Below, in pieces: positions 13,567-30,005 of a stretch of DNA of 64,000 bases (position 1 is the first letter of the stretch; every line of letters starts with the position of its first letter). The position numbers were made by a program, and so were the translations under genes. The notes under the pieces were generated by a model. It was not told where the DNA came from. It worked only from the letters and a program-made list of their open reading frames with translations, and made no database searches. The DNA is from Salinispirillum sp. LH 10-3-1. Its GTDB lineage: Bacteria > Pseudomonadota > Gammaproteobacteria > Pseudomonadales > Natronospirillaceae. The DNA lies in contig NZ_CP101717.1 in assembly GCF_030643825.1 (NCBI RefSeq), positions 2,046,001 through 2,110,000 on the forward strand, written 5' to 3'.

Positions 13567-14436
13567 TCAACTAACAACATCCTTCATCAACAACCGATAA
13601 TCAACTCCCTGATATTCAAGCAACTTTTCCCAGGTACTTTGAGAATACAGCATAATTATTTTTAGCTGCTTTAGTGACACCTTATGCGGCTCATCGCTGT
13701 AATCATAGAATTTTACATGGCCGCTAGTATTAACACTTAGCCCATGAATGTTTATTCCGATAGACTCAAATAAGTAAGTGAACTCTTTTCGATACACCTT
13801 CAGGGATAGTGTTTTTTGTTCTATGTTGTCGGTTTCTGACTCCAAAATTTCTGTGCAAAAATTAAATATTTTTCTAGAAAATTCAACTAATTCGATTACT
13901 TTGTCTTCAGAACATTTAATACCACCATCCTCTCTAGACCTAGGCCAAAGAATAAAATATGAAGCCAACGCATGTTGATTTTTAAAAAAGTTAGAATCGA
14001 AAAGATCCCTATCAAATTTAGACCACTTTATCTTTTCGCTTTTAACGACCTTTTCAAAAAAATCTTCAAACTCTTCCTTATGCTTATAATAATTATTCAG
14101 TGTGTTAATTTTCCGGCTCTCTGACAATTGTTCATCTGTCTGATGTGATCTATGCAGTGCAGCCACAATACCAAGAACAGGAATGGACAGAGCAAGCACG
14201 TACATTGGCACACCCAGCATGTCTACAAAAAGCACCCGAAATCCCGCTCCAGTAAAGTCAAAGCACCTGCCATTAACTATATACTCTGCAATAAGAATGG
14301 GAATGGCCATGAATGCAGCTAATAACAGAAAACAAAAAAACCAATTCCATAAAACCTTTGATAGACTCTGCTTATAATCAAGTCGTTCTTTGACGAAATC
14401 CAAAATCTTACGAAAACCAATTCTTAACTTACTCAT
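13567..14436 (-). CDS. AT-rich two-helix membrane protein, candidate phage exclusion or abortive-infection factor
   Basis: 289 residues with a strong AAGGAGG ribosome site. Two membrane helices lie at about residues 29-53 (WNWFFCFLLLAAFMAIPILIA) and 67-92 (FVDMLGVPMYVLALSIPVLGIV). A cytoplasmic, highly charged helical domain of about 190 residues follows (ALHRSHQTDEQLSESRKIN, NYYKHKEEFEDFF). The gene is far richer in A and T than its neighbours and interrupts the rusA and YbcO-like pair, so it was probably inserted. Two-helix proteins with a charged soluble domain are a common shape of anti-phage membrane effectors. I do not recognise the family; the role is inference. Confidence 0.72.
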   Translation of the reverse strand: MSKLRIGFRKILDFVKERLDYKQSLSKVLWNWFFCFLLLAAFMAIPILIAEYIVNGRCFDFTGAGFRVLFVDMLGVPMYVLALSIPVLGIVAALHRSHQTDEQLSESRKINTLNNYYKHKEEFEDFFEKVVKSEKIKWSKFDRDLFDSNFFKNQHALASYFILWPRSREDGGIKCSEDKVIELVEFSRKIFNFCTEILESETDNIEQKTLSLKVYRKEFTYLFESIGINIHGLSVNTSGHVKFYDYSDEPHKVSLKQLKIIMLYSQSTWEKLLEYQGVDYRLLMKDVVS

Positions 14437-18112: not shown

Positions 18113-18376
18113 TCATGCAGCCGAACGGCTGCTAGGTAGTTTTCTCCGCTTTCGATCACGGAGAAGGTCGAACACAGAAACCTCTTTGTTCAAGGCTTCT
18201 GATATTTCGAGAATCCAGTCTGCTGGGGCTTGTTGCTGGCGCTTTACCCACATTTGGACCATGACACCTGTGATTGGCTCACCGTCCACGCGGTCATTTA
18301 TCAGCTTGGCGAGAGCAGCAAACCCGCCAGCGAGATCAACTGCTCGCTCAATGGCGAGCTTTTCATCAGGAATCAT
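18113..18376 (-). CDS. Cro/YdaS-like transcriptional regulator
   Basis: 87 residues, divergent from the CI-type repressor. The pattern AIERAVDLAGGFAALAKLIN, GEPITGVMVQMWVKRQQQAP, LNKEVSVFDLL matches the short helix-turn-helix Cro/YdaS group. It is the first gene of the leftward early operon and its promoter carries the operator repeats at 18,385-18,455. It should act as the lytic-side repressor of cI. Confidence 0.8.
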   Translation of the reverse strand: MIPDEKLAIERAVDLAGGFAALAKLINDRVDGEPITGVMVQMWVKRQQQAPADWILEISEALNKEVSVFDLLRDRKRRKLPSSRSAA

Positions 18377-18384
18377 CGTCTAAA

Positions 18385-18455
18385 GCTCCACTATGTATTC
18401 TCTATAAAAATACATTATGGATTCTTAAATCAGGCAAAGCAATACAAAATGTTAG
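18385..18455. promoter_or_regulatory. left operator cluster and cro promoter (OR/PR-like)
   Basis: Two 15-bp sites match AATACA-N3-TGTATT: 18409-18423 (AATACATTATGGATT) and 18441-18455 (AATACAAAATGTTAG), with a weaker half-match ending TGTATT at 18399. Arms ATGTATT/AATACAT also form a perfect 7-bp dyad at 18393-18415. On the minus strand TTGCTT (18442-18437), 17 bases and CATAAT (18419-18414) give the cro promoter, so the two good sites cover its -35 and -10. Confidence 0.65.
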
Positions 18456-18490: not shown

Positions 18491-19093
18491 ATGAAAACAT
18501 GGCAAGATCGAATAAAAGAGATGATGCGGAAATCTGGGCATACTCAGTATGACCTAGCGGACGCGCTTGGCCTTTCGCAAGGTGGCGTGGGCCATAAGCT
18601 GAATGGGCGGCGTGACTTATCGACTGAAGAGCTGGTAAAGCTGGCACAGTTTTTTGGTGTGTCTGTTGACTACATTCTTCTGGGCACCGGCTCTTCCTCT
18701 TCAGAACAGCGATCCGCCTTTAGGGTGCCGCTATTGACGTCTCAGGAAATTGAAAGCAACAGCTTAGATGCAACTGCAATGAGTTACTTACACTCTCCTG
18801 TTCGCATCGGCCTTAGAGGTTTCGCATTCAAATTACGGGATAGCTCGATGGAAAACCCTTCTGGCTCCCCGTCATACCCAGAAGGTTGCATTGTTTTTGC
18901 TGACCCAGATCTTGCCCCTTCACCAGGGCGAAGAGTGATTGCCATCGTGAACGGCAAGGCCGCAATGAAAGAGCTGATCGAAGACATGGGCGTGTATCAA
19001 CTGCGCAGCTTGAACCCGGCTTATGGACGCACCATTGATGTGACGCTGGATCAGGTGGTTGCAACGGTCGTAGGGAAGTTCGAGGGGGAGTGA
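18491..19093 (+). CDS. CI-type phage repressor, HTH plus S24 peptidase domain
   Basis: 200 residues from the ATG at 18491 (the frame is open further upstream). The N-terminal helix-turn-helix spans about residues 5-60 (GHTQYDLADALGLSQGGVGH). The C-terminal S24 domain keeps the LexA/CI layout: DSSMENPSGSPSYPEG with the nucleophile Ser, then MKELI with the general-base Lys, and VVGKF at the end. No Ala-Gly or Cys-Gly dipeptide is present in the linker where self-cleavage normally occurs. It has no clear ribosome site. It should hold both early operons off through the shared operators. Confidence 0.85.
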   Translation: MKTWQDRIKEMMRKSGHTQYDLADALGLSQGGVGHKLNGRRDLSTEELVKLAQFFGVSVDYILLGTGSSSSEQRSAFRVPLLTSQEIESNSLDATAMSYLHSPVRIGLRGFAFKLRDSSMENPSGSPSYPEGCIVFADPDLAPSPGRRVIAIVNGKAAMKELIEDMGVYQLRSLNPAYGRTIDVTLDQVVATVVGKFEGE

Positions 19094-19193: not shown

Positions 19194-19379
19194 ATGACCA
19201 CCAACACTGTAAAAAAATCAAAAGAAGAGTACGCAGCTGAGTTGTTGAGTTTTGAGAGTGGCCAACAAGTATTGAACGTTGACTGCCTAAATAAGTCTGG
19301 CGCTTCAAAGTACATCCTCAAAGTTGCTGCGAAGGTAAATTTTCCCAAGCAGAAAGAAAAAACGGCCAATGCTTCTTAG
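19194..19379 (+). CDS. small soluble protein, first gene of the repressor-linked cargo
   Basis: 61 residues with a good AGGAG site eight bases ahead. Charged and soluble (KKSKEEYAAELLSFESGQQV, KVAAKVNFPKQKEK), with no membrane segment. It overlaps the next gene by 11 bases, so the two are translated together. I see no known domain. Its size and charge would suit a regulator or inhibitor of the membrane protein that follows, but that is speculation. Confidence 0.6.
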   Translation: MTTNTVKKSKEEYAAELLSFESGQQVLNVDCLNKSGASKYILKVAAKVNFPKQKEKTANAS

Positions 19380-20136
19380 TGTTACAGAATTTTTGTTTGT
19401 ATCTTTCGCTTCCGGCTATTTCTTTATTCACTTTTACAAACCTTGGGCCCTTACGAAGCAGTATTTGAAGGGTAGCCATTTTTACTATAGGGCACTCATT
19501 GTTGGGGTGCCTTTTTATTTGGTGTCCATGCTTGTACTGGTGCTTACTTTTCACTGGATGAAAAGCTTCGCTTGGCTTTTAGAGCTGAACAGTAGAGCTG
19601 CCGCTATATATCCGGCGCAATGGTTTCAACTGAGATCGTTTGGTTTCACATTCGCCGTAAGCTCAATGATGTCGATATTGTTGGCTCTAGCCTTAACTCG
19701 CTTGGTCATAAAATACAAACCAGACTGGGAAGCTGCCATTGTATATAGCTACGGCACAGGCCTGCAAAAGATGCTTTTGGAGTGTCAGCAAACCTACCGA
19801 AGAGTCATAACATCCAAAGACACGGATAACCCTGAAACCATCTTTTTTGTAGAAGTGGTTCTCTCGTCTGGGAAAAGTTACATTGGCCTGCCACTGGGTA
19901 GCTTAATGCCTGACGAGCTGAACGCGCGCGATTACATTGAGATTTTGCCTATTTTTAGTGGGTATAGAAAGAAGGACACGCATGAATTGGTGCCATCCAT
20001 TAATTACACGCAAATGTACTTCGTGCATTACGAAGGAGATTTGAGTGAAGACGTCAAAGTGACCATTGACCTAGACAAGATAGATTACGCGCGCTGGTAC
20101 AGGCCGGAGTTGTCACAATATTTTGAAAGCAACTAA
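19369..20136 (+). CDS. membrane protein of the repressor-linked cargo
   Basis: 255 residues with three predicted membrane helices (about 4-20, 41-64 and 95-112) and a cytoplasmic C-terminal domain of about 140 residues. That domain contains VVLSSGKSYIGLPLGSLMP, YIEILPIFSGYRKKDTHEL, the look of a small beta domain (SGK-x-YIG) seen in uncharacterised bacterial membrane proteins. It follows the 61-residue gene with an 11-base overlap and precedes a lipoprotein. The three genes lie downstream of the repressor on the same strand, as rexA/rexB lie with cI in lambda. Function unknown; exclusion of other phages is a hypothesis. Confidence 0.7.
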   Translation: MLLSVTEFLFVSFASGYFFIHFYKPWALTKQYLKGSHFYYRALIVGVPFYLVSMLVLVLTFHWMKSFAWLLELNSRAAAIYPAQWFQLRSFGFTFAVSSMMSILLALALTRLVIKYKPDWEAAIVYSYGTGLQKMLLECQQTYRRVITSKDTDNPETIFFVEVVLSSGKSYIGLPLGSLMPDELNARDYIEILPIFSGYRKKDTHELVPSINYTQMYFVHYEGDLSEDVKVTIDLDKIDYARWYRPELSQYFESN

Positions 20137-20245
20137 AAAGTCATACCATGCTCTAAGCTCCCATATCGAAACAATAAAAGCCCCCGAAGAGGTGCCCCAC
20201 CCTGCCACTGCGATCAAGGCCGACCCTTACCTTCAAGGAGATGAT

Positions 20246-21397
20246 ATGAAGAAGATACTTTCCTGCACTTTGTTCATTACGCTTTCAGGTTGTGCTTCAA
20301 CTATGGTTTGGCATCACCCAGACATGGCTTCACAGAATTTCTACTCGGATAGAGCCCACTGCAATTCTATTGCAGGACCTGGCAATCACCAAATTCAGAC
20401 ACAGAACAACCAGCCTCAAAACTTTTCATCCGGATTCACTCAAGGATGGAACAATGCAGCGGCAGCATCTGCTGTACAGCGACAATCTCAAATTTTTAAT
20501 GACTGCATGCGTGGAAAGGGGTACTACTTGGCACCTGAAAACACTGCGCCGGAAAACCCTGCCCCCGTGAAAACGTCGTCATTAGATAATGCAAAAGATC
20601 GGTTTTGGGATGACATTGAAGAAGCGATTCCATATTGGCAAGACCTTCAAAGTACTGATGCAGGGCAGCGTTGGCTTCTTGGAAACGATCCGCTTTCCGG
20701 GCGCCAGCGCAATGAAATTTTATTGGATGCAGCGGATCAACTCGACTCTCAACGAGTAATTGCGATCTTCCGGCAGTTGGAGCGAGATATTGGATATCAA
20801 CCACAGGCGTCATTGGGTCCAGACAATATTGTAGCTGAGCTAAATAGTTACGGCGCACCGACTCTTGGCTTTTTGCTGGTGCAAGAAGTCTCAAATGATC
20901 ACGACATTGACGTTCTTCACGGTTTTGACATTCTATCAATAGAGCGAGTTGGTTCATCAGCAAACATCACCAAGGCAACAAGAATGGCATATCACCAGCC
21001 GACTAACAGTGAACCAATCGAAATTCGTACGACATTTGAGCTGGATTGTAACGACTTTTACTTCAGGGCAACTCTTAGGGAGTTTACTTACTATAAAACA
21101 GAGATAGACCCCTACAGTGAAGTGAACCTAAGGCAAGATTGGAATCCATTCACGTCACAAACGCCTAATGGCGTGCTCTTCACCATGGTATGCCAAGACG
21201 TAGCTGTAGCAAAAATAATTGATGCTCACTGGGCTGGGCATGGAATGCAGCTTCTAAAAATAGTGCCCTCTTTGGTTAGCCCACTGGAATTGGTAGTGCT
21301 TTCCGATAGAAATGACATTGACAGTGAACTGGTCCCTTCTGGACTTTCGATGTTTCTTGCAAACAACAACCCAAACTTTAGACACCTTCTAAACTAA
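20246..21397 (+). CDS. lipoprotein of the repressor-linked cargo
   Basis: 383 residues from the ATG at 20246, chosen because AAGGAG precedes it and a lipoprotein signal starts there (lipobox LSGC, Cys 16). The longer frame to 20123 has neither. The mature part begins with a Gln/Asn-rich stretch holding Cys residues (HCNSIAGPGNHQ, NDCMRGKGYY), typical of small envelope lipoproteins, then a larger domain (AIPYWQDLQSTDAGQRWLLG; ELDCNDFYFRATLREFTYY). I do not recognise it. It ends at a strong terminator and is probably expressed in the lysogen. Confidence 0.7.
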   Translation: MKKILSCTLFITLSGCASTMVWHHPDMASQNFYSDRAHCNSIAGPGNHQIQTQNNQPQNFSSGFTQGWNNAAAASAVQRQSQIFNDCMRGKGYYLAPENTAPENPAPVKTSSLDNAKDRFWDDIEEAIPYWQDLQSTDAGQRWLLGNDPLSGRQRNEILLDAADQLDSQRVIAIFRQLERDIGYQPQASLGPDNIVAELNSYGAPTLGFLLVQEVSNDHDIDVLHGFDILSIERVGSSANITKATRMAYHQPTNSEPIEIRTTFELDCNDFYFRATLREFTYYKTEIDPYSEVNLRQDWNPFTSQTPNGVLFTMVCQDVAVAKIIDAHWAGHGMQLLKIVPSLVSPLELVVLSDRNDIDSELVPSGLSMFLANNNPNFRHLLN

Positions 21398-21419: not shown

Positions 21420-21443
21420 GCCCGCCTCAAGCGGGCTTTTTTT
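21420..21443 (+). terminator. terminator of the cI-cargo unit
   Basis: GCCCGC and GCGGGC pair perfectly across the loop CTCAA and are followed by seven T. It insulates the repressor/cargo transcript from the rightward early promoter 30 bases downstream. Confidence 0.92.
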
Positions 21444-21458
21444 GCCTGATCAAAATTT

Positions 21459-21522
21459 AATACATTTTGTATTGACACAATACATTTTGTAGCATAGCCT
21501 TCCAATAAATACGTTTTGTATT
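21459..21522. promoter_or_regulatory. right operator cluster and early promoter (OL/PL-like)
   Basis: Three 15-bp sites share AATACA-N3-TGTATT: 21459-21473 is a perfect palindrome around TTT, 21479-21493 and 21508-21522 differ by two and one bases. TTGACA (21472-21477) with TAGCCT (21495-21500) 17 bases on forms a rightward promoter lying among the sites. The same motif controls the cro side, so one repressor should shut both early operons. Confidence 0.8.
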
Positions 21523-25845: not shown

Positions 25846-26204
25846 TCGAATTTCTTCACTCACCTGGTAATCTGACGGCGAAAACTATTCAGGCCGATGG
25901 CACCGTGGCAGCAGTCCATGCACAACTAGGCCAACCAGAATATGACGTGCTGTTGGCCGCCATGCAGCAAATCGACGAACTGCGCGAAGAGCGGGACCAG
26001 TTTGCTATGGCGTTGGATGTCGAGAACACCAGTACATCAGGCTTAGTGCGATGTTATCAGCAGGTTATAGCAGACCTTAATAACTACACCCGTGCCAGCG
26101 TGCACGGCGGCAAGGAAATGCCCTTCTACAACGAAGCGTGCGTGTTACTGCGCCGGATGGCGGAGATTGATCGCACTGGCCGGACAGGGAGGAAGGTAGC
26201 GTGA
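25842..26204 (+). CDS. small helical phage protein
   Basis: 120 residues starting on the overlap with the exonuclease. Helical and charged, with QIDELREERDQFAMALDVEN as a coiled-coil stretch. Phage proteins of this size between recombination and methylation genes are common and uncharacterised. It overlaps the methyltransferase by four bases. Confidence 0.65.
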   Translation: MIEFLHSPGNLTAKTIQADGTVAAVHAQLGQPEYDVLLAAMQQIDELREERDQFAMALDVENTSTSGLVRCYQQVIADLNNYTRASVHGGKEMPFYNEACVLLRRMAEIDRTGRTGRKVA

Positions 26205-27868
26205 ACCAATACCGCACCACACCTCAAATGGGCCTATACGTCGATGAATTATTGGTTGATAACTTCGCCGGCGGCGGTGGTGCCAGCACCGGCATTGAGG
26301 CCGCTTTAGGTCGCCCGGTAGATATCGCAATCAATCACGACCTTGATGCCGTCAGCATGCACACGGTAAACCACCCTCACACTCGCCACTATTGTGAGTC
26401 CGTATGGGAAGTGAACCCGCGTGAAATCACCTACGGCCTACCTGTTGGCTTGGCTTGGTTTTCGCCCGACTGCAAGCACTTCAGCAAGGCAAAAGGCGGC
26501 ACACCAGTAAGCAAAGAGATTCGCGGCCTTGCATGGGTTGCCGTACGTTGGGCTGCGACCGTACGCCCACGCGTCATCATGTTAGAGAACGTTGAAGAGT
26601 TCATGACATGGGGGCCAATCGTAGACGGCAAACCGTGCAAACGACGCAAGGGGCAAACATTCAATGCCTTCATAAACGCACTCAAGCGACTAGGTTACGC
26701 CGTAGAAACTCGCGTGCTGCGTGCCAGCGACTTCGGCGCACCCACAATTCGCAAACGCCTGTTTCTGGTGGCACGTTGCGACGGCCAGCCGATTGTATGG
26801 CCAGAACCCACCCACGGTGACCCAGCGGCCAAAGGATTCAAACAGTCTGGCTTAAAGCCATGGCAAACAGCGGCGGATATTATCGACTGGTCGATTCCCT
26901 GCCCTTCAATCTTTGGCCGTAAAAAGCCATTGGCAGAAAACACGCTGCGCAGAATCGCACGCGGCATTCAGCGGTTCGTATTCGACAATCCAAAACCTTA
27001 TATCGTGCGCATAGGCCAACAGGGTTTTGGTGGCGATGGCATGCAGTACAGCATTGATAGCCCACTGACCACGATTACAACCAAAGCAGAACACTGCTTA
27101 GTAGTTCCCCACATCACCAAGTTCCGCAATGGCAGCACCGGAACATCCATGGATGAACCACTACATACCATTACTGCGGGCGGAGACATGGGCCGTCCGG
27201 GAACGCCCACGACAATGGGGCTGGTAACTGCCCTTCTGGCCAAGCACTACGGCGGCGGCTACACCGGTGCTGGTTCAGAGCTTACCGACCCACTGCATAC
27301 CGTCACCACGACCGATCACAACGCCCTTGTGGCAGCAAGCATGGTTAAGCTTCGTGGTACAAACATTGGCAGTGAACTGGATTCGCCCTTGCATACCGTT
27401 TCGGCGGGCGGCACCCACCATGCGTTAGTCACAAGCCATATCGTCAAAATGAAGAATAATCAGGATGCGCAGTCAGTAACGGAGCCTTTACCGACGCTGA
27501 CCATGCGTGACCACGTTGGCGAAGTACGCGCGTTCCTGATCAAGTACTACGGCACCAATGTTGGCCACTCCCTCAATGAGCCTTTGCAGACAGTCACCAC
27601 CAAGGATCGCTTTGGTTTGGTCGTCGTTAAAGGCGAGCTCTACCAGATCGTAGACATTGGCATGCGAATGCTGGAGCCGCACGAACTCTTTGCTGCTCAA
27701 GGCTTTCCGGCTGATTACATCATCGACCGCAACGCCGAAGGCAAGCCACGCCCGAAATACCAACAAGTTGCGCGGTGCGGAAACTCAGTATGCCCACCGG
27801 TTGCGGCGGCGCTGGTGCAGGCAAACATGGTGAGCGAACAATCCAACAAACGGAGGGCTGTTGCATGA
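26201..27868 (+). CDS. C5 cytosine DNA methyltransferase with repeat-rich target-recognition region
   Basis: 555 residues. Motif I is VDNFAGGGGASTGIEAAL. Motif IV reads SPDCKHFSKAKGG, with Asp before the catalytic Cys in place of the usual Pro. Motif VI is MLENVEEF and motif VIII TIRKRLFLVAR. Motifs IX and X are near the C-terminus (FAAQGFPADYI, CGNSVCPPVAAAL). Residues 284-468 hold six copies of a roughly 32-residue unit built around PLxTxT. No restriction endonuclease is next to it, so it is probably an orphan that protects phage DNA from host cutting. The target sequence cannot be read off. Confidence 0.9.
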   Translation: MNQYRTTPQMGLYVDELLVDNFAGGGGASTGIEAALGRPVDIAINHDLDAVSMHTVNHPHTRHYCESVWEVNPREITYGLPVGLAWFSPDCKHFSKAKGGTPVSKEIRGLAWVAVRWAATVRPRVIMLENVEEFMTWGPIVDGKPCKRRKGQTFNAFINALKRLGYAVETRVLRASDFGAPTIRKRLFLVARCDGQPIVWPEPTHGDPAAKGFKQSGLKPWQTAADIIDWSIPCPSIFGRKKPLAENTLRRIARGIQRFVFDNPKPYIVRIGQQGFGGDGMQYSIDSPLTTITTKAEHCLVVPHITKFRNGSTGTSMDEPLHTITAGGDMGRPGTPTTMGLVTALLAKHYGGGYTGAGSELTDPLHTVTTTDHNALVAASMVKLRGTNIGSELDSPLHTVSAGGTHHALVTSHIVKMKNNQDAQSVTEPLPTLTMRDHVGEVRAFLIKYYGTNVGHSLNEPLQTVTTKDRFGLVVVKGELYQIVDIGMRMLEPHELFAAQGFPADYIIDRNAEGKPRPKYQQVARCGNSVCPPVAAALVQANMVSEQSNKRRAVA

Positions 27869-29923: not shown

Positions 29924-29929
29924 AGTATT

Positions 29930-29960
29930 TGGTGGAGCTAAGCGGGATCGAACCGCTGAC
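29930..29960. other. probable attachment-site junction (attL or attR) in the tRNA 3' end
   Basis: Phage DNA with the integrase ends against the intact 3' end of tRNA-Ala, and host genes lie on the other side. Integrases of this type commonly use the 3' part of a tRNA and restore it with phage DNA. The other junction is outside the window, so the shared core cannot be measured. Confidence 0.55.
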
Positions 29961-30005
29961 CTCCTGCATGCCATGCAGGCGCTCTCCCAGCTGAGCTATA
30001 GCCCC
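29930..30005 (-). tRNA. tRNA-Ala(GGC)
   Basis: On the minus strand the 76 bases fold as a full tRNA: GGGGCTA acceptor arm paired at the other end, a D arm (GCTCAGCTGGGAGAGC), an anticodon stem CCTGC/GCAGG with loop ATGGCAT (anticodon GGC), a TTCGATC T loop, and an encoded CCA. The prophage integrase lies at its 3' end, and the gene is kept whole. Confidence 0.95.

Follow-up and report, generated by a model that had tools for sequence, protein, structure and literature searches.

Lambda rexAB and CarolAnn gp43/44 are exclusion pairs of a soluble and a membrane protein that are cotranscribed with the repressor (PMC6426606), and Sbash gp30/31 and Butters gp30/31 are related two-gene exclusion systems (PMC7542560). 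In P2-like phages, the slot between gpA and gpQ is a hotspot of anti-phage systems (PMC9122126). A repressor-linked gene block was explored here in a stretch of 64,000 nucleotides from Salinispirillum sp. LH 10-3-1 (the window), in which three genes, ORF1, ORF2 and ORF3, follow a CI-type repressor. ORF1–ORF2 resembled the lambda RexAB, CarolAnn, Sbash and Butters systems as a soluble-plus-membrane pair, and it was located in the same slot as RexAB, which extends from cI to the second operator cluster. Lambda RexAB acts against superinfecting phages by depolarising the membrane. However, RexB is a membrane protein with four helices, whereas three helices and a cytoplasmic C-terminal barrel are predicted for ORF2, and RexA/DUF4747 is a large soluble protein, whereas ORF1 has 61 residues. 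No sequence relation was found between ORF1–ORF2 and the RexAB, CarolAnn, Sbash or Butters pairs. Because the helix number, the partner and the sequence differ, ORF1–ORF2 would work like RexAB without being a member of that system.

The prophage and its repressor-linked gene block

The block is carried by a prophage of about 51 kb, which is bounded by a perfect repeat of about 46 bp from the 3' end of tRNA-Ala(GGC). The two copies of the repeat are about 51 kb apart, one at 29929-29974 (the right end, in the window) and the other about 21 kb to the left of the window. These repeats are likely the att sites, in which case the prophage starts outside the window. The prophage genes include head, portal, terminase, RecE/RecT and integrase genes, and the prophage is apparently intact and complete. 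A phage DNA methyltransferase (phrog_116, E 6e-101) was observed in the rightward operon at 26201-27868 on the plus strand. Furthermore, a protein of 289 aa, with a membrane-like stretch at its N-terminus, is encoded at 13567-14436 on the minus strand, among late and replication genes; it matched phrog_17460, whose function is unknown, and is possibly another cargo gene. The features of the block are as follows.

18409-18455, no strand: operator-like sites near the cI promoter (OR-like), with AATACATTATGGATT at 18409-18423 and a site with three mismatches at 18441-18455, as consensus matches only
18491-19093, plus strand: CI-type repressor with HTH and S24 peptidase domains (Pfam HTH_3 1e-11, Peptidase_S24 3e-11; phrog_4 repressor, E 1.9e-31)
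19194-19379, plus strand: ORF1, a 61-aa soluble protein in the small-partner position, with an AGGAG Shine-Dalgarno sequence before its ATG
19369-20136, plus strand: ORF2, a 255-aa phrog_3630 member (profile, BLASTP, alignments), predicted as a three-helix inner-membrane protein with a C-terminal cytoplasmic small beta-barrel
20246-21397, plus strand: ORF3, a 383-aa orphan lipoprotein, with AAGGAG before its ATG and the lipobox MKKILSCTLFITLSGC
21420-21443, plus strand: intrinsic terminator 3' of ORF3 (hairpin at 21420-21436, GCCCGC-CTCAA-GCGGGC, then T7)
21459-21522, no strand: three operator-like sites (21459, 21479 and 21508) 5' of the RecE/RecT operon (OL-like), from the pattern scan

All three ORFs were open and on the same strand, in the order ORF1–ORF2–ORF3 downstream of CI. 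ORF1 and ORF2 overlap by 11 nt, and a gap of 109 nt separates ORF2 from ORF3. According to the terminator scan, no terminator-like site was present in the interval between CI and ORF1, and none was found between the three genes; the single clear terminator followed ORF3. The operator-like motif AATACATTTTGTATT flanked the cI–ORF1–ORF2–ORF3 block on both sides. When up to three mismatches were allowed over the whole window, this motif had 8 matches against 1.5 expected, and 0 of 100 shuffles reached 8. The first-pass annotation had described a soluble protein, a three-helix membrane protein and a lipoprotein after CI and before a strong terminator, placed between two operator clusters in a rex-like slot. 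These points were all borne out, with the genes standing in line 3' of cI and before the second operator cluster.

The leftward side of cI carried a YdaS/Cro-like gene and a replication-type operon, and RecE/RecT was located beyond the right operator cluster. The YdaS-like gene (PF15943, E 1.5e-8; 18113-18376, minus strand) occupied the cro position, divergent from CI. The arrangement is thus the lambda layout, with three genes occupying the rex slot. The GC contents of ORF1, ORF2 and ORF3 were 41-45%, compared with 51-57% in the neighbouring genes. Transcription of ORF1, ORF2 and ORF3 together with the cI repressor is plausible.

ORF2 and its small partners

The phrog_3630 profile matched ORF2 over its full length (E 1.7e-11; residues 10-254, profile positions 7-250 of 274). 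ORF2 was also related by BLASTP to P0008, a family member from another genome (E 6e-14), and its own locus was recovered when the class genomes were searched with the family profile. ORF2 is a divergent member of phrog_3630, with about 17-28% identity. In the alignment, conserved family columns were found in its C-terminal part, namely K-x-Y-x-G (169-173), SGYR (197-200) and Y213. Nothing in Pfam, NCBIfam or PADLOC exceeded the threshold for ORF2. Close relatives of ORF2 were absent from IMG/VR, the plasmids, GTDB and its own taxonomic family, and the family was reached only by profile and remote searches.

The hydropathy of ORF2 peaked at residues 2-20, 43-61 and 91-109, which corresponds to three helices. 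The AlphaFold model, which was of middling confidence (pLDDT 63.5, pTM 0.43), had three long helices at the N-terminus, together with linker helices and a barrel of six strands. The two parts of the protein are encoded as follows.

19372-19716, plus strand: membrane part of ORF2, with model helices at residues 2-23, 36-72 and 83-116 (AlphaFold model; hydropathy)
19837-20100, plus strand: putative cytoplasmic barrel of ORF2, residues 157-244, Sm/LSm-like (Foldseek; VIA; conserved columns)

In the Foldseek comparison of the barrel with the PDB, nearly all of the top matches listed were Sm/LSm proteins with a probability of about 1.0, but with E values of 0.025 and worse. The VIA Z scores against Sm/LSm reached 6.5, a middling level that is also reached by chance, and the PDB sequence search gave no match. 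Any likeness to the Sm/LSm proteins concerns residues 157-244, and ORF2 differs from them in being membrane-anchored. By our reading of the positive-inside rule, the barrel faces the cytoplasm. Alignment of the ORF2 family with DUF6338 (PF19865) by hhalign gave a probability of 81.6 and an E value of 1.1e-5 over 84 columns, and the Pfam match of ORF2 itself (10.1 bits, E 0.61) was below the 26.5-bit gathering cut-off. Both start with membrane helices and continue into a similar beta stretch, and the alignment suggests a distant relation; the function of DUF6338 is itself unknown. An MscS-like channel, which combines three helices with an Sm-like barrel, was considered for ORF2 and is kept as a thought; no Pfam MS_channel match was obtained, and MscS was not among the Foldseek and VIA matches listed.

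The relatives of phrog_3630 recur as a two-gene module of a small ORF and a membrane gene. The small upstream ORFs, which measure 55-100 aa when the first start codon is used, either overlapped the start of the membrane gene or ended only a few bases from it. A small ORF of this kind overlapped or abutted the 5' end of the membrane gene in 36 of the 36 copies in phages and viral contigs with upstream sequence, which represent about three sequence groups because many are near-identical. The same arrangement was found in distant genomic copies (L006, L009, L012, L013, L116-L118, L120, L121, L142, L143, L146, L148 and L150), and a few other distant copies had no small ORF by the simple ORF filter. 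A weak core pattern was common to most of the small partner proteins. ORF1 scored 2.4 bits with the leave-one-out HMM of the small partners, for which shuffles reached up to 8.9. Moreover, ORF1 matched neither of the small-partner families, phrog_9843 and phrog_35771, in the PHROG and Pfam searches; its PHROG match was limited to phrog_12852 (E 0.038), and no Pfam match was obtained up to E 5. Since ORF1 has no detectable similarity to the small partners, it is assigned the partner role by its position, its size and the overlap. In summary, the window pair shares with phrog_3630 the full-length match of ORF2 and the order of a small ORF and then a membrane protein; it differs in that ORF1 falls outside phrog_9843 and phrog_35771, and in that ORF2 is located in the putative cI transcript instead of the gpA-gpQ slot.

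Genomic settings and the proposed role of the pair

The phage records of the phrog_3630 family were SEN4/5, ST15-OXA48phi14.1, phiES15 and vB_Pae_U5/U6. The family was also found in 50 viral contigs and, by weak DNA similarity, in 59 E. coli genomes (three inspected); an IMG/VR scan seeded with P0023 gave no matches. Its presence in genomes was sporadic, with 13/369 of the class (the weakest of the 13 being marginal), 9/194 of the order and 12/398 of the phylum.

In P2-like phages, the pair was located in the gpA-gpQ hotspot, flanked by the replication gene and the portal gene. It was the only evident cargo at this site in L036, L037, L038, L055, L059 and L076/L077. The second cargo at the other copies varied and included bSEFIR, SIR2 (ThsA/LmuA-like), PtuA (Septu), a defence RT (retron RT), HEC-06 and PDC-S59, and at one copy a protein annotated as superinfection-exclusion-B family. 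Outside this hotspot, the phiES15 copy adjoined the integrase and attP, the L143 copy was between the tail genes and the integrase, and the L118 copy was in a Mu-like prophage between gpG and the I protease. One further copy was in a lambdoid prophage, and the L120 copy was in a P2-like prophage, at most about 1 kb from an S24 repressor. A 228-aa membrane-like protein was also noted in this prophage directly 3' of the S24 repressor (L120:7718-8404); it occupies a rex-like slot, converges with the ORF2-family pair and had no Pfam match.

According to PADLOC, which also called SIR2, HEC-06, PtuA, the defence RT and bSEFIR as defence, the neighbours of the family in defence islands were BrxA/B/C (BREX), type I R-M and SoFic at L116, Vsr, a type II REase and an MTase at L117, and type I R-M at L148. 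At L123, a 1464-aa protein is encoded beside the family pair and near an rpoD-like gene (L123:10073-14467). This protein was NTPase-like by eye and had no Pfam or PADLOC match, and it is a possible unrecognised defence gene. The copies at L122, L124, L125, L145-L147, L149 and L150 were scattered over chromosomes without defence neighbours, and their flanks differed each time. Among them, L145-L147, L149 and L150 belong to one taxonomic family and carry closely similar ORF2 relatives at differing chromosomal sites with different housekeeping neighbours, a spread that suggests that they moved recently, although no mobile element is evident. Hence, the sporadic presence, the varying neighbours and the repeated phage cargo sites indicate a mobile and probably defensive cargo instead of a housekeeping gene.

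Family copies with a small partner keep turning up in prophage defence hotspots and in defence islands, which lends solid support to the rex-like position and to an exclusion role for the pair. ORF1–ORF2 would be a two-gene phage-exclusion cassette that acts by superinfection exclusion or abortive infection, and the probability of this reading is put at roughly 0.55. A location in a hotspot is guilt by association and not proof, and some of the genes there are not defensive. We infer expression with cI, contact between ORF1 and ORF2, an exclusion activity and a membrane mechanism, which may be combined in the following manner. The lysogen would keep the pair expressed through the cI transcript. 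ORF2 would be inserted in the inner membrane by its three helices, with the small Sm-like barrel in the cytoplasm, and ORF1, from the overlapping upstream frame, may be a small cytoplasmic partner that keeps ORF2 inactive or relays an infection signal. Infection by another phage would trigger the pair, and ORF2 may then disturb the membrane, by a pore or by a block of entry or assembly, such that the superinfecting phage fails. That this step is specifically Rex-like, as an analogy with lambda would have it, is a tentative and somewhat doubtful refinement.

The small gene 5' of the membrane gene and overlapping it, as well as the copies on various mobile elements and at scattered chromosomal sites, would also fit a toxin–antitoxin-like module for addiction or lysis control, in which ORF2 is the membrane toxin and ORF1 the antitoxin, and the prophage is stabilised without protection from phages. 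However, the association is specifically with defence hotspots, and no toxin–antitoxin family was matched in NCBIfam or Pfam, so that such a module is considered unlikely. The two explanations overlap, because a toxin–antitoxin pair can itself act in defence.

ORF3 and the meaning of the block

The signal peptide of ORF3 ended in LSGC with Ala at +2, and the lipobox MKKILSCTLFITLSGC was identified by direct reading of the sequence. On the basis of the lipobox and the +2 Ala, ORF3 is probably an outer-membrane lipoprotein. The GC3 of ORF3 was 42%, and its single-sequence structure model was uninformative (pLDDT 31). No relatives of ORF3 were found in phages, plasmids, IMG/VR, GTDB (pattern-seeded), its own family, 274 class genomes or the PDB. 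phrog_13189 was tried as a relative (E 0.0036) and rejected. The C-x(3)-DW-x-x-I/L-G-x-x-DG pattern of its members is absent from ORF3, so the match mainly reflects the signal peptide. One further weak resemblance was recorded.

20924-21196, plus strand: residues 227-317 of ORF3, weakly similar to Adhesin_E (PF16747; E 0.017), which include the Cys of FELDC and that of MVC

Receptor-blocking lipoproteins encoded by phages are well established, with phage T5 Llp as an example. Together with the Adhesin_E-like stretch, this precedent is consistent with ORF3 being an independent lysogenic-conversion lipoprotein of the surface, which would mask or change a receptor or surface property and be the source of most of any exclusion phenotype, with ORF1–ORF2 serving another purpose. 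The Adhesin_E match (15.8 bits, E 0.017, profile positions 15-109) was, however, below the 23.7-bit gathering cut-off, ORF3 had no homologues, and no Adhesin_E match at E<=0.001 was obtained in the genome of the window or in 27 related genomes. Moreover, the defence association was stronger for ORF1–ORF2. ORF3 is thus rather unlikely to account for most of any such phenotype; it is perhaps a surface-modifying conversion gene.

It was also asked whether the three genes together make up a single exclusion system that spans the envelope, in which ORF3 would act at the outer membrane, for example as a receptor shield. The same strand, the single terminator after ORF3, the higher AT content of all three genes relative to their neighbours and the probable outer-membrane location of ORF3 agree with such a system. 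However, the relatives of ORF2 in the inspected loci were paired and had no obvious accompanying lipoprotein, ORF3 had no relative in any collection searched, and the ORF2–ORF3 gap of 109 nt differs from the 11-nt overlap of ORF1 and ORF2; a single three-gene system is therefore quite improbable. Since ORF3 is an orphan in all collections searched, the three genes are not conserved together, and ORF3 is best taken as separate cargo on the same transcript. Least probable is a cellular role of ORF2, such as an RNA- or stress-related one, as a membrane protein captured from bacteria and unconnected with phage exclusion. Single chromosomal copies (e.g., L122, L124, L125 and L145-L150) and a moderate Sm-like resemblance that could hint at RNA binding can be cited for this reading, but it fits poorly with the sporadic occurrence, the differing neighbours and the repeated use of phage cargo sites, all unlike a housekeeping gene.

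In the exclusion reading of ORF1–ORF2, ORF3 would be a separate lipoprotein cargo, encoded downstream in the same transcription unit. The superinfection-exclusion role proposed in the first-pass annotation is accordingly kept for ORF1–ORF2, whose family pair occurs in defence hotspots and islands, and is not supported for the trio. The proposed set spanning the cytoplasm, inner membrane and outer membrane was likewise not supported: pairs of the ORF1–ORF2 type recur, and the full trio is not conserved. That none of the three proteins was recognisable still holds for the orphan ORF3 and for ORF1, which has no significant family match, and no longer for ORF2, which belongs to phrog_3630. This family is unnamed, sporadic and differs in its neighbours between copies.

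For ORF1, ORF2 and ORF3, PADLOC-DB 2.0.0 (2023) gave 0 matching families at E values of up to 5. When PADLOC was applied to the relatives, the pair itself was unmatched, and the only hit was a weak Cas2 match (E 0.0027) for one small protein. A literature search by accession, PHROG number and description gave nothing on the pair, which may be listed unnamed among the 169 curated P2-hotspot systems of PMC9122126. Quite possibly, at a little under even odds, phrog_3630 and its small partner make up an anti-phage system of two genes that is widespread in Gammaproteobacteria and their phages and has so far gone unnamed, in which the effector is the membrane protein with its Sm-like barrel in the cytoplasm; the window version would then have moved to the rex slot of a lambda-like prophage. 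An anonymous hypothetical pair of P2-like, lambdoid, Mu-like and Cronobacter/Pseudomonas phages and of BREX/R-M islands would thereby become a testable defence candidate, and since E. coli prophages carry copies (e.g., L025, L026 and L027), the candidate could easily be tested directly in laboratory strains of this species. For the prophage itself, the block would be a further case of unrelated proteins occupying the slot of lambda rexAB.
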